DNA of 64,000 nt from Owenweeksia hongkongensis DSM 17368. GTDB taxonomy: Bacteria; Bacteroidota; Bacteroidia; Flavobacteriales; Schleiferiaceae. Numbering within the stretch: the first letter of the stretch is position 1; every line of letters starts with the position of its first letter. The stretch covers positions 1 to 64,000 of the forward strand of contig CAMBEZ010000003.1 of assembly GCA_945865885.1 (NCBI GenBank), in the 5' to 3' direction. Below the pieces are notes generated by a model. The model made no database searches. It was not told where the DNA came from and worked only from the letters and a program-made list of their open reading frames with translations. Both the position numbers and the translations under genes were made by a program. Shown in pieces: positions 11,255-30,784 of the stretch.

Positions 11255-13162
11255 TTACTTCACTTCTTCAAATTCCACGTCCGTAACGTCTGCAGCTCCG
11301 TTGCCGGATCCACCTGCAGCATCACCGCCTGCTCCCGGCTCACCGCCTGCGCCGGCTTCTGCCTGTGCTTTATACAGCTCCTCAGATGCGTTTTTCCACG
11401 CCTCGTTGATCTGTTCCATGGCCGCATCAATGGCGCTGATCTCCTGGCTGGCGTGCGCCTTGCGCAAGTTCTCCAGTGCCGTTTCGATGGAAGCTTTTTT
11501 GTCGTCGGACAGCTTTTCGCCGAATTCCTTCAACTGCTTCTCCGTTTGGAAAATCATGGAATCCGCAGCATTGAACTTCTCTACGCGGTCCTTCGCCAGT
11601 CGGTCGGACTCCGCATTGACTTCCGCTTCCTGCTTCATTTTATCGATGTCTTCCTTGCTGAGACCAGAGGAAGCCTCAATCCGAATACTCTGCTCCTTAC
11701 CGGTGGCCTTGTCTTTGGCCGACACGTGCAACAAACCGTTGGCGTCGATGTCAAACGTCACCTCAACCTGTGGAACACCACGGGGTGCCGGCGGTAGGCC
11801 GTCCAAGTGGAAACGTCCGATGGTCTTGTTGTCCTTGGCCATGGGGCGCTCGCCTTGCAGCACGTGGATTTCAACCGACGGCTGACTGTCCGAAGCCGTA
11901 GAGAAGGTCTCCGACTTTTTCGTAGGAATGGTGGTGTTGGACTCAATCAAGCGCGTCATTACGCCGCCCATGGTCTCAATTCCCAGACTCAGCGGGGTTA
12001 CGTCCAGCAGTAGAACGTCCTTCACGTCGCCCGCCAAAACGCCCCCTTGGATGGCAGCGCCAATGGCCACAACCTCGTCCGGGTTCACGCCTCGGTTGGG
12101 CTCCTTGCCAAAAAACTTCTTGACGGCCTCTTGAATGGCCGGGATGCGGGTAGAACCGCCCACCAAAATGACCTCATCGATCTCCGACGTGCTCATGTTG
12201 GCGTTTTTCAGGGCCGTGCGGCAGGGAGCAATGGTGCGCTCCACCAAGTCCGCTACCAGGCGCTCAAAATCCGCGCGGCTCATCGTTTTCACAATGTGCT
12301 TGGGACCGCTCGCCGTAGCCGTGATGTACGGAAGGTTAATTTCCGTGGAACCGGCAGTGGACAATTCGATTTTGGCCTTTTCAGCAGCTTCTTTCAAGCG
12401 CTGCAACGCCATGGCGTCTTGCCGCAAATCCACGCCCTCCTCAGCTTTGAAACCGGCCACCAGCCATTCGATGATGCGCTCGTCAAAGTCGTCGCCGCCC
12501 AAGTGGGTGTCGCCGTCGGTGGATTTTACTTCAAACACACCGTCGCCCAGTTCCAAAACAGACACGTCGTGCGTACCGCCGCCGCAGTCAAACACCACAA
12601 TCTTTTGGTCCTTGCCTTGCTTGTCAATACCGTAGGCCAATGCGGCCGCAGTGGGTTCGTTGATGATGCGTCGAACCGTCAAGCCGGCAATTTCTCCGGC
12701 CTCCTTAGTGGCCTGACGCTGGGCGTCGTTGAAGTACGCGGGAACCGTGATGACGGCCTCGGTGACTTCCGTACCCAGGTAGTCCTCAGCGGTTTTCTTC
12801 ATTTTTTGCAGCACCATCGCCGAAATTTCTTGCGGCGTGTACAGGCGACCGTCGATGTCCACACGCGGGGTGTTGTTGTCCCCTTTCACCACGGAATAGG
12901 GCACGCGCGCGGTTTCCTTCGCCACGTTGTCGTAGGACTCGCCCATGAAACGTTTGATGGAGAAAATGGTCTTTTTGGGGTTGGTGATGGCTTGACGCTT
13001 GGCAGGATCGCCCACTTTGCGCTCTCCGCCTTCTACGAAACCAATGACGGACGGTGTGGTCCGTTTTCCTTCTGCATTGGGGATGACAACGGCTTCGTTG
13101 CCTTCCATGACGGCGACGCAGGAGTTGGTGGTTCCCAGGTCAATTCCGATGATTTTTCCCAT
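11255..13162 (-). CDS. dnaK: Molecular chaperone DnaK (Hsp70)
   Basis: ATP-dependent cytoplasmic chaperone. 635 aa, full length. The ATPase domain starts [19 protein letters not shown] with the adenosine-site motifs [15 protein letters not shown] (Cys in place of the usual Leu/Met) and [14 protein letters not shown]. The substrate-binding domain starts near residue 390 ([20 protein letters not shown]). The C-terminus is a Gly/Ala-rich linker ending DVEFEEVK, as usual. No DnaJ or GrpE gene adjoins it. No CIRCE repeat is visible upstream; a possible promoter is TTTGAC about 33-40 nt and TACCTTAT about 10 nt before the start codon. Confidence 0.99.
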
Positions 13163-13214
13163 GATTGAAATAAGGTATTTAGTGGTTCCGGTAGGTCAAA
13201 CCCCGTACCAAATG

Positions 13215-13242
13215 CAGAAGGCCGGGAAAACCCGGCCTTCTG
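13215..13242 (-). terminator. Terminator hairpin after the 13288-14337 lipoprotein gene
   Basis: Perfect 12-bp stem (CAGAAGGCCGGG / CCCGGCCTTCTG) with an AAAA loop on the plus strand. It lies between the end of the lipoprotein gene and the dnaK start, so it insulates dnaK. A strong T-tract is lacking, so efficiency is uncertain. Confidence 0.75.
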
Positions 13243-13287
13243 TCATTCATTTGCGACAATTTGTCAGTTTTGACCGCCCTACCGGAC

Positions 13288-14337
13288 TCAATTGCAGGTC
13301 AGGGTGTCAAAAACCGTGGTTTTGGCAAAGCGCAGCTTGCACGTTTTGCGGCTGTATACCAAGGAATCCAAACTGTTGTTGGAGATGTTGAGGTACGGAC
13401 GCACGTAGGTAGCGCGGCTCGCAAAAACGCCGGCTCCCCCCTGCACGTTGGTGAAAAACGGCTTGTCTTGAACGATGGAGTTGCTGGGTTGGCTGACGCT
13501 GATGTAGGTGGCCAAATCGTCCGATCCTGCTACCAAGTGCAGATCAATGCCCCGAAACCAACGAAGCACTCCGGGTTTCACGGGCAAAGCAGGGGTGTTT
13601 GCCAAAAAGTTGTAAAAATCCTCGTACCCCACGGCCGTGTTGATTTCGCCGTTGCCCAACAAATTATTTCCCAACAAGGTAGGAAGCGGGTAGTCCACCG
13701 AATAGCGGATGGAGTCGGCCAAATCGCCCCCTTCCACGGTTTCCGTCCAACGAAACCGCAGAAAGCCCTGGTACATCCTTGCGTTCACGGCCTGGTCCCA
13801 GCGAAACTTGGCGCCGTTCTTGGATCCAATGGGAATGCGCACCAAGGCCCCTCCCACGGGAGACGGCTCCCGCAGCACCCACGTGGAGGGTTTCACCAAA
13901 GGCGTGGTGGCCACCAACAGCGGTTCGGTCTGGTTTTCTTTGAAGGCCTTGACGCGGTAGGTGAAGTCCTCGTTCAGATTGCCAACCAATCGGTACGCTT
14001 TATAGCCGGTGGGTACAAAAGGGCCGTTGGTGTTCAAGACGACTTCCGACGCCTCCGGCAAAGTATAGGTGGCTCTCAATTGCCCGTTGGGACCCAGGGC
14101 TTCCACCACTACCGTGAGGTTGGTGTAGTACAAGCTGTCCGGGTGTTGCGTGCCTCCATCCGGTCCCTCGCTGCCCAGGTAAGCGCGCCCAATGCGCACG
14201 TAGTTGGTGTCCTCTGTGGGGTTCAACAAAGCAAACAACACCGGCGTTTCCTCCCACGGTGCGGTTACGTCCAGGGTATTGTCGCACGCGGCGAAGGCGA
14301 GTACGGCGGCCACTCCGGCCAATAGGTTTCTGCGCAT
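13288..14337 (-). CDS. DUF4249-like lipoprotein
   Basis: 349 aa. Lipoprotein signal peptide [18 protein letters not shown] with a lipobox Cys at about 18. An immunoglobulin-like N-terminal part follows ([25 protein letters not shown]), and a C-terminal region with [18 protein letters not shown], the GxGxF-type pattern found in DUF4249 proteins. Such proteins are common in Bacteroidota, often beside TonB-dependent receptors; none is here. Function unknown; outer-membrane surface attachment is inferred. A perfect -7 box (TACTTTTG) ends 5 nt before the ATG. It is divergent from panB, which has its own box 3 bp from this one. Confidence 0.72.
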
Positions 14338-14342
14338 ACGCG

Positions 14343-14361
14343 CAAAAGTACGTTACCTTTG
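14343..14361. promoter_or_regulatory. Back-to-back divergent -7 boxes, lipoprotein / panB
   Basis: CAAAAGTA-cgt-TACCTTTG: the minus-strand TACTTTTG (14343-14350) and plus-strand TACCTTTG (14354-14361) are only 3 bp apart. They end 5 nt and 4 nt from the start codons at 14337 and 14366. Both are perfect TAnnTTTG. Simultaneous RNA polymerase occupancy seems sterically impossible. Confidence 0.75.
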
Positions 14362-14365
14362 CCCC

Positions 14366-15181
14366 ATGTCCGTACACGCCGAATTCAAGAAAGTGACCAC
14401 GCACGCGCTGCAAGAAATGAAGCGCCAGGGAGAAAAGATCAGCATGCTGACCGCCTACGACTACACCATGGCCCTTTTGGTGGACCGCGCGGGTGTGGAT
14501 GTGGTGCTGGTGGGCGATTCCGCCAGCAACGTCATGGCTGGCCACGAAACCACCCTGCCCATTACCCTGGACCACATGATTTACCACGCCTCCAGCGTGG
14601 TGCGCGGCGTGGACCGGGCTTTGGTGGTGGTGGACATGCCTTTTGGTACCTACCAAGGAAATTCCAAAGAGGCCCTCTCCAGCGCGGTTCGCATCATGAA
14701 GGAATCCGGCGGGCACGCCGTTAAACTGGAAGGCGGTCAGGAAATTATCGACTCCATCGAGCGCATTTTGCGGGCGGGAATTCCCGTGATGGGCCACCTG
14801 GGCCTGACGCCGCAGAGTATCTACAAATTTGGCACCTACACCGTGCGGGCCAAGGAAGAGGCGGAAGCAGAAAAACTGATTGAAGACGCCTTGGCCTTGG
14901 AAAAGGCCGGCTGTTTTGCGCTGGTTTTGGAGAAAATCCCCGCTTCGTTGGCCAAAAAAGTGTCCGATGCGCTGGCCATTCCCGTCATCGGAATCGGTGC
15001 TGGACAGGGCGTTGACGGCCAAGTTTTGGTGTTGCACGACATGTTGGGCATGAACCACAACTTCAATCCGCGCTTTTTGCGCCGCTACGCTAATTTGGAC
15101 ACCGTCATCCACGATGCGGTTTCCCACTACGTTTCCGACGTGAAGGAGTTGAAGTTCCCGACGGATCAAGAGAGTTACTGA
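14366..15181 (+). CDS. panB: 3-methyl-2-oxobutanoate hydroxymethyltransferase (PanB)
   Basis: First committed step of pantothenate synthesis: adds a hydroxymethyl group from methylene-tetrahydrofolate to alpha-ketoisovalerate. 271 aa TIM-barrel of normal length. Motifs: [39 protein letters not shown] split over the N-terminal third, [26 protein letters not shown], and IPVIGIGAG. Asp and Glu metal ligands are present in LVGDS and the KLEGG region. The start at 14366 is set by the family N-terminus and the -7 box. The rluA-like gene follows after 4 nt. Confidence 0.97.
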
Positions 15182-15185
15182 GTCC

Positions 15186-15881
15186 ATGCCCAATTCCACC
15201 GCGCCCGAAGTTCTTTGGGAAGACAATCATTTGTTGGCCCTGAACAAGCCGGCCGGTTGGCTGGTGCAACCGGACCCGTCTGAGGCTTTTGCTCTGGAAC
15301 AGTGGGCGGAGCGCTGGGTGGCCAAACGAGCCGGCAAACCCAAGGCTTTCATTGGTGTACCCCATCGGTTGGACCGCCCCACTTCCGGCTTGGTGCTCTT
15401 GGCCAAAACGTCCAAAGCCTTGGCACGGCTCAACCAAGCATTCCACGACCGCACCGTAACCAAAACCTACTGGGCAGTGGTGGAGGGTTGCCCCAGCGCG
15501 CCGGAGGGACGGTTGGAGCACCGTTTGGCCCGGGACGGCAAAAACAACAAGTCTTTTGTAAGCCAACGGGCGGACGCCCAGCAAGCGGTTTTGCACTACC
15601 GAATCGTCACCAAAGGCGACCGGTACACCTTGGTGGAAGTAGACCTGGAAACGGGCCGGCACCACCAAATTCGGGTACAACTCGCGGCCCTAGGCCACCC
15701 CGTCAAAGGAGATTTGAAGTACGGAGCCAAGCGCTCCAATGCGGACGGAAGCATTCACCTCCACGCGCGGCGGGTTGCCCTAGCGCATCCGGTGGGCGGC
15801 ACTCCCTTGGTGGTGGTGGCACCCTTGCCCAAAGAAGCTCTCTGGCAAGCACTTGCGCCTGTTGATTCAACTATAGATTAA
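15186..15881 (+). CDS. RluA family pseudouridine synthase
   Basis: 231 aa. Converts uridine to pseudouridine in rRNA or tRNA; the target cannot be told from sequence. The catalytic motif HRLDRPTSGLVLLAKT holds the nucleophilic Asp, and GRHHQIRVQLAALGHPVKGD is the second family motif. There is no S4 RNA-binding domain, so it is one of the short RluA/TruC-like members. It is likely co-transcribed with panB. The stop codon TAA (15879-15881) and the priA stop on the other strand share the bases TTAA, so the two genes overlap tail to tail by 4 nt. Confidence 0.92.
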   Translation: MPNSTAPEVLWEDNHLLALNKPAGWLVQPDPSEAFALEQWAERWVAKRAGKPKAFIGVPHRLDRPTSGLVLLAKTSKALARLNQAFHDRTVTKTYWAVVEGCPSAPEGRLEHRLARDGKNNKSFVSQRADAQQAVLHYRIVTKGDRYTLVEVDLETGRHHQIRVQLAALGHPVKGDLKYGAKRSNADGSIHLHARRVALAHPVGGTPLVVVAPLPKEALWQALAPVDSTID

Positions 15882-20896: not shown

Positions 20897-20922
20897 CAAA
20901 AGTACGCCTTCTCCTACCTTTG
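20897..20922. promoter_or_regulatory. Divergent -7 boxes, lipoprotein / TauE-like transporter
   Basis: Minus-strand TACTTTTG (20897-20904) and plus-strand TACCTTTG (20915-20922), 10 bp apart. They end 5 nt and 4 nt from the start codons at 20891 and 20927. Both are perfect and both predict leaderless transcripts. Confidence 0.72.
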
Positions 20923-30765: not shown

Positions 30766-30784
30766 CAAAGGTACGCTATCTTTG
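30766..30784. promoter_or_regulatory. Back-to-back divergent -7 boxes, def / ruvX
   Basis: CAAAGGTA-cgc-TATCTTTG: minus-strand TACCTTTG (30766-30773) and plus-strand TATCTTTG (30777-30784), 3 bp apart. Each ends exactly 4 nt from its start codon (30761 and 30789). Same geometry as 14343-14361. Confidence 0.78.

Follow-up and report, generated by a model that had tools for sequence, protein, structure and literature searches.

The 28 bp between the start codons of a putative lipoprotein gene (ATG 14337, minus strand) and panB (ATG 14366, plus strand) carry two outward-facing -7 boxes only 3 bp apart. An earlier note on this DNA had described two such boxes almost filling the gap, and this description is exact: the boxes and the cgt between them occupy 19 of the 28 bp. 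We are fairly confident that they are back-to-back, one-way promoters of the primary sigma factor, which would yield leaderless mRNAs from a compacted gap and leave the two genes nearly independent in expression at ordinary promoter strength. The arrangement is common in this genome and the locus is one of its tighter examples rather than a special case; the leaderless pattern at the genus level is a stronger finding than the single locus. Boxes, spacing, conservation, synteny and recurrence across the genome were read from the sequence. The features of the locus, together with two further box pairs in the window (the whole stretch of 64,000 nucleotides analysed), are listed in Table 1.

Table 1. 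Coordinates of the lipoprotein/panB locus, its neighbours and the other box pairs of the window.
Feature	Position	Strand	Remarks
dnaK, downstream of lipoprotein gene	11255..13162	-	named by eye; tblastn match in 30/30 family loci
Conserved putative lipoprotein, 349 aa, distant DUF4249 relative	13288..14337	-	lipobox read by eye
Box-to-ATG stretch, lipoprotein side	14338..14342	-	5 nt; predicted TSS at or next to A of ATG 14337
-7 box, lipoprotein promoter	14343..14350	-	CAAAAGTA on plus strand, TACTTTTG on minus strand; ends 5 nt before ATG; identical in G006
Spacer between boxes	14351..14353		3 bp, cgt; agt in G006
-7 box, panB promoter	14354..14361	+	TACCTTTG; ends 4 nt before ATG; identical in G006
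Box-to-ATG stretch, panB side	14362..14365	+	4 nt, cccc; predicted TSS at A of ATG 14366
panB, ketopantoate hydroxymethyltransferase	14366..15181	+	PF02548, E = 2.4e-116
Pseudouridine synthase gene	15186..15881	+	PF00849, E = 9.7e-36; 4 bp after panB
Third box pair of the window	20897..20922		gap 10 bp; both sides leaderless
Second box pair with 3-bp gap	30766..30784		leaderless on both sides, each box 4 nt from its ATG; 19 bp identical in G006

Both boxes fit the Bacteroidota -7 element TAnnTTTG as well as TAHHTTTG, the refined consensus reported for F. johnsoniae (PMC6847099). According to the same report, the TSS of probable F. johnsoniae promoters follows the box at a distance of 4 or 5 nt, and given the position of the boxes here, both mRNAs are predicted to be leaderless, as the earlier note had proposed; the claim is thus supported as a prediction. 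Each promoter box lies directly upstream of its start codon, as in leaderless genes, and this position is kept in the same-genus genome G006. Promoter activity, the exact TSSs and leaderless translation are predicted on these grounds, with a distance of approximately 29 bp between the two predicted TSSs. RNA polymerase with the housekeeping primary sigma would bind either of the two -7 boxes and initiate on or beside the A of the ATG 4–5 nt downstream, giving two leaderless mRNAs.

The genome contains a single PF00140 sigma match, a protein of 287 aa with regions 1.2, 2, 3 and 4 only and without a Pfam match for region 1.1, and this fits the short primary sigma of the Bacteroidota type. The sigma-ABfr promoters of F. 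johnsoniae, F. psychrophilum and B. thetaiotaomicron likewise have the -7 box TAnnTTTG and are served by a short primary sigma. The present locus has no room for a Shine-Dalgarno leader. The -33 region of each promoter does lie within the opposite gene, as the earlier note had stated, but this holds for the position and not for the element: TTG, and with it the -33 TTTG/TTG element, is absent from -45 to -13 in both promoters, and no -33 motif was found in 37 unpaired leaderless promoters of the genome. Because this element is described as far less pronounced in F. johnsoniae (PMC6847099), it is a weak criterion, and membership of the class rests on the -7 element. Among the same 37 promoters, a weak excess of TTG at -43 to -40 (12 of 37) was noticed post hoc, and the base preceding TA was G in 54% and A in 3%.

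Paired boxes recur far beyond chance expectation. The sequence CAAANNTANNNTANNTTTG occurs twice in the window (at 14343 and 30766), against 0.00 expected from 100 shuffles, and box pairs with gaps of 0–30 bp occur three times, against a mean of 0.07 and a maximum of 1 in 100 first-order Markov simulations. Across the genome (1.81 Mb in 51 contigs), 41 such pairs were found, compared with 3 for a reversed-pattern control. Their gaps were 2–5, 6–15 and 16–30 bp at 12, 16 and 13 sites, respectively, and none was 0 or 1 bp. When an ATG was counted only if it opened a frame of at least 50 codons, both boxes were followed by an ATG after 3–7 nt at 12 of the 41 sites here, compared with 20 of 42 in G006; 5 of the 12 own-genome sites that are leaderless on both sides had gaps of 2–4 bp. 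The earlier note had called the locus unusually compressed, which cannot be maintained for its own genome, where 12 of 41 pairs are as tight as 2–5 bp, although such pairs are rare in other Bacteroidota. Among 191 sites listed from six genomes (including 33 of 37 from G007 and 26 of 29 from G049), which are partly orthologous and not independent, 39 had gaps of 2–5 bp and one, without a flanking ATG, had a gap of 0–1 bp; by eye, no clear period indicative of helical phasing was seen in the gaps of these sites.

Relatives were compared at the same gene pair and at orthologous sites. At lipoprotein/panB, G006 keeps the 3-bp gap between its identical boxes, with an ATG 4 nt past each. Read by eye, 14 of 25 divergent lipoprotein/panB loci had both exact boxes, and the other 11 lacked at least one. 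The gap was 3 bp in G000 and G006, 16 or 19 bp in most loci of genus g16 and approximately 31 bp in one; boxes 16 or 19 bp apart at the same gene pair point to compaction. For 28 of the 41 sites, G006 has orthologous divergent genes with both boxes, and 27 of 28 leaderless sides were leaderless there as well. Since G006 sites could be found only if they still matched the pattern, box conservation in this comparison is inflated and sites that lack a box are missed. Most of this bias is avoided by setting the free NN bases of the boxes, which match G006 at 100 of 112 positions, against the spacers, counted solely in equal-gap orthologous pairs, which match at 85 of 139 (p = 3e-7).

The gap was unchanged in 9 of 10 orthologous pairs at 2–5 bp and in 8 of 18 wider ones (p = 0.04). 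Per base, however, the tight gaps showed 1 change over 37 bp, where the rate in wide gaps predicts 1.35, and with equal rates the length of the gap alone explains why tight gaps are retained. The pattern fits compaction without selection on the gap, a direction of change that we infer from the comparison with g16. The tight fit would then result from the compaction of intergenic regions in a lineage with small genomes and heavy reliance on leaderless starts, and the divergent order of dnaK-lipoprotein and panB-rlu in the family is probably older than the 3-bp gap. A selected spacing of exactly 3 bp, a candidate prompted by the two 3-bp sites of the window, was rejected, as the own-genome gaps range from 2 to 30 bp and gap length accounts for the retention of tight gaps.

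Judging from the size of a typical footprint, two polymerases could not occupy both boxes at once. Simultaneous binding would be sterically unfavourable and is unlikely, and this part of the earlier note's argument stands; its conclusion that firing of one promoter must block the other does not follow. In E. coli, all five bidirectional promoters reported as tested had a basal activity too low for competition, and competition arose only once one direction was strongly raised (PMC12825309). On this analogy, near-independent expression is expected, with interference only if one side is strongly active: the lipoprotein and panB are probably expressed independently at ordinary promoter strength, whereas strong promoters at this locus would interfere. 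The lack of interference is extrapolated from E. coli, whose results may not be transferable to the RNA polymerase of this organism. The dozens of back-to-back promoters in this genus (g1) and in g16 constitute a natural test set for how close promoters can be before their polymerases interfere.

Bidirectional promoters of prokaryotes were reportedly described by Warman et al. in 2021, as related by papers that cite them (PMC10268837, PMC12825309). They resemble the present locus in that divergent transcription arises from one short segment without double polymerase binding. Their -10 positions, however, overlap, with divergent TSSs reported to be 7–25 bp apart (PMC10268837), the separation given as most frequent being 18 bp, whereas the boxes here are 3 bp apart with more widely separated predicted TSSs. 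The term bidirectional promoter, used in the earlier note, is therefore not appropriate in the sense of a shared element, as the locus has two adjacent, non-overlapping boxes instead; separate divergent promoters are, by one account, not counted as bidirectional (PMC12825309). The shared-TA form CAAANNTANNTTTG, which in Bacteroidota would correspond to the bidirectional promoter of E. coli, was also considered and dropped: this palindrome was not enriched in the own genome (4 vs 5 in the control), in g1 (14 vs 16) or in the 22 genomes of g16 (62 vs 54).

A wider reading, which we regard as doubtful, holds that compact Flavobacteriales-like lineages have moved to largely leaderless transcription and evolved a distinct class of divergent promoters, two non-overlapping -7 boxes set back to back, with a floor of approximately 2 bp to the gap, N-terminal codons that double as promoter DNA and strong pairs coupled by exclusion. 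If it were true, each start codon would lie inside the polymerase footprint of the other promoter. A floor at approximately 2 bp may exist: in the own genome, the gap bins from 2 to 5 average 3 sites each and bins 0 and 1 are empty. The rarity of A and the frequency of G before TA would presumably disfavour a gap of 0.

Less probable still is a mutual-exclusion switch between the lipoprotein and panB transcripts, with a 3-bp spacing selected for that purpose. The complete overlap that the two polymerase footprints would have, the gap of 3 bp kept in G006 and the more frequent exact retention of tight gaps would agree with it, but tight gaps change no less per base than wide ones, the same gene pair stands at 16 or 19 bp in g16, equal tightness is found at other gene pairs, and the E. 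coli promoters compete only under strong activation. We give a slightly smaller chance to the boxes or ATGs being partly coincidental, with a different promoter as the main source of transcripts for one or both genes. In its favour, 54 codons above ATG 14366 are open in the panB frame; however, the alignments of panB relatives begin at residues 1–8 of the start at this ATG, and on the other side (CAT at 14335–14337, the ATG of the minus-strand lipoprotein gene) the frame has just 5 open codons above the ATG. The excess of 41 sites over 3 across the genome, the preservation of boxes, spacing and both ATGs in G006, and a box-to-ATG distance that peaks at 4–5 nt, the known spacing from -7 box to TSS, oppose coincidence. 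Finally, an operator for a dimeric regulator of both genes is very improbable, as the near-symmetry of the 19-bp sequence across both boxes, CAAAAGTACGTTACCTTTG, arises because two -7 boxes face outward, and gaps of 2–30 bp in the genome, spacers less conserved than boxes and flanking ORFs that vary between sites (judged by ORF lengths) are unlike an operator of fixed spacing.

The preferred reading of back-to-back leaderless promoters is in line with the box-to-ATG distances of the genome as a whole. In the own genome, TACCTTTG was followed by an ATG at 3–6 nt in 71 cases (6 in the control) and at 11–40 nt in 90 cases (26 in the control), and among the first 100 of 155 matches, the distances peaked at 4 (25), 5 (12) and 6 nt (8). 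Counts from 88 genomes were pooled per genus to estimate what share of the excess of ATG-proximal TACCTTTG is leaderless, with nine genera giving no measurable value; based on one box variant and a rough measure, these shares rank the genera and are not true fractions. They were 0.50 in g1 (3 genomes) and 0.45 in g16 (22 genomes), compared with 0.11 in g5, 0.17 in g17, 0.20 in g3, 0.23 in g15, 0.24 in g2, 0.25 in g7 and 0.31 in g18. Genus g13 reached 0.57, but its excess was small and its paired sites were not enriched (31 vs 35). Leaderless panB is not family-wide, since panB is often leadered in g16 (in L102, for example, the box is 16 nt before the ATG).

In the Bacteroidota transcriptomes published so far, most mRNAs have leaders and 4–13% are leaderless: in F. 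johnsoniae, 87% of leaders are reported to be longer than 10 nt and approximately 13% to measure 10 nt or less (PMC6847099), F. psychrophilum has 5.5% leaderless transcripts, and 3.7% of the 5' UTRs of B. thetaiotaomicron are shorter than 10 nt. The own genus g1 and g16, another compact genus, look approximately half leaderless in the excess at the commonest box and contrast with these, and their leaderless genes form a test set for how Bacteroidota ribosomes initiate on leaderless mRNA. A survey in which only Pribnow-like boxes were sought reports that, of 37 Bacteroidetes/Chlorobi genomes, one had leaderless genes, at 2.4% (PMC3160421). The leaderless genes it describes in Actinobacteria and Deinococcus-Thermus are like those here in having the promoter box a few nt from the start codon.

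The pair is embedded in a conserved neighbourhood. Neither Pfam nor NCBIfam gave a match for the lipoprotein itself, but 11 of its 13 aligned relatives match PF14054 (DUF4249); its AlphaFold model has a mean pLDDT of 79.6 and a pTM of 0.73. It was found in 82 of 88 family genomes, the six misses being genomes of at most 84% completeness; no match to it was obtained in G007, the third genome of g1. The nearest panB relatives in named genomes are from Flavobacteriales MAGs (UBA7878 at 81%, the next at 77%). Among the 30 fetched loci, dnaK adjoins the lipoprotein gene in all 30, panB lies upstream in 25 and is divergent in all 25 of these, and the pseudouridine synthase gene, which is probably cotranscribed with panB, is near the pair in 24; no panB match was present in the sequence stretches examined for L101, L118, L119, L121 and L122. 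Nothing was found that would connect the lipoprotein functionally with panB. Most family loci examined keep the gene order seen at 11255–15881, with dnaK and the DUF4249-like lipoprotein gene on one side and, divergent from them, panB and the pseudouridine synthase gene. Between the lipoprotein gene and dnaK, an 11-bp GC-rich hairpin (13216–13241, minus strand) is not followed by a clear T-run; it may form the end of the lipoprotein transcript, and cotranscription of the lipoprotein gene with dnaK may also be considered.

Beyond the family, the pattern CAAANNTAN{0,8}TANNTTTGN{3,6}ATG was sought in 395 sampled genomes of the phylum. On inspection of the counts, the own genome had both the highest count (18, with 0 in the control) and the highest density, and the next counts were obtained in larger genomes, namely G430 (16), G171 (15), G462 (12) and G472 (10). 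Several matches with zero in the control also occurred in G364 (8), G247 (9) and G196 (7). In the titles and abstract openings of the open-access literature, we recognised no description of back-to-back leaderless promoters in Bacteroidota. The paired boxes of G430, G171 and G462 are repeated in near-identical copies, several of them near contig ends, and look like a mobile element that carries the pattern.
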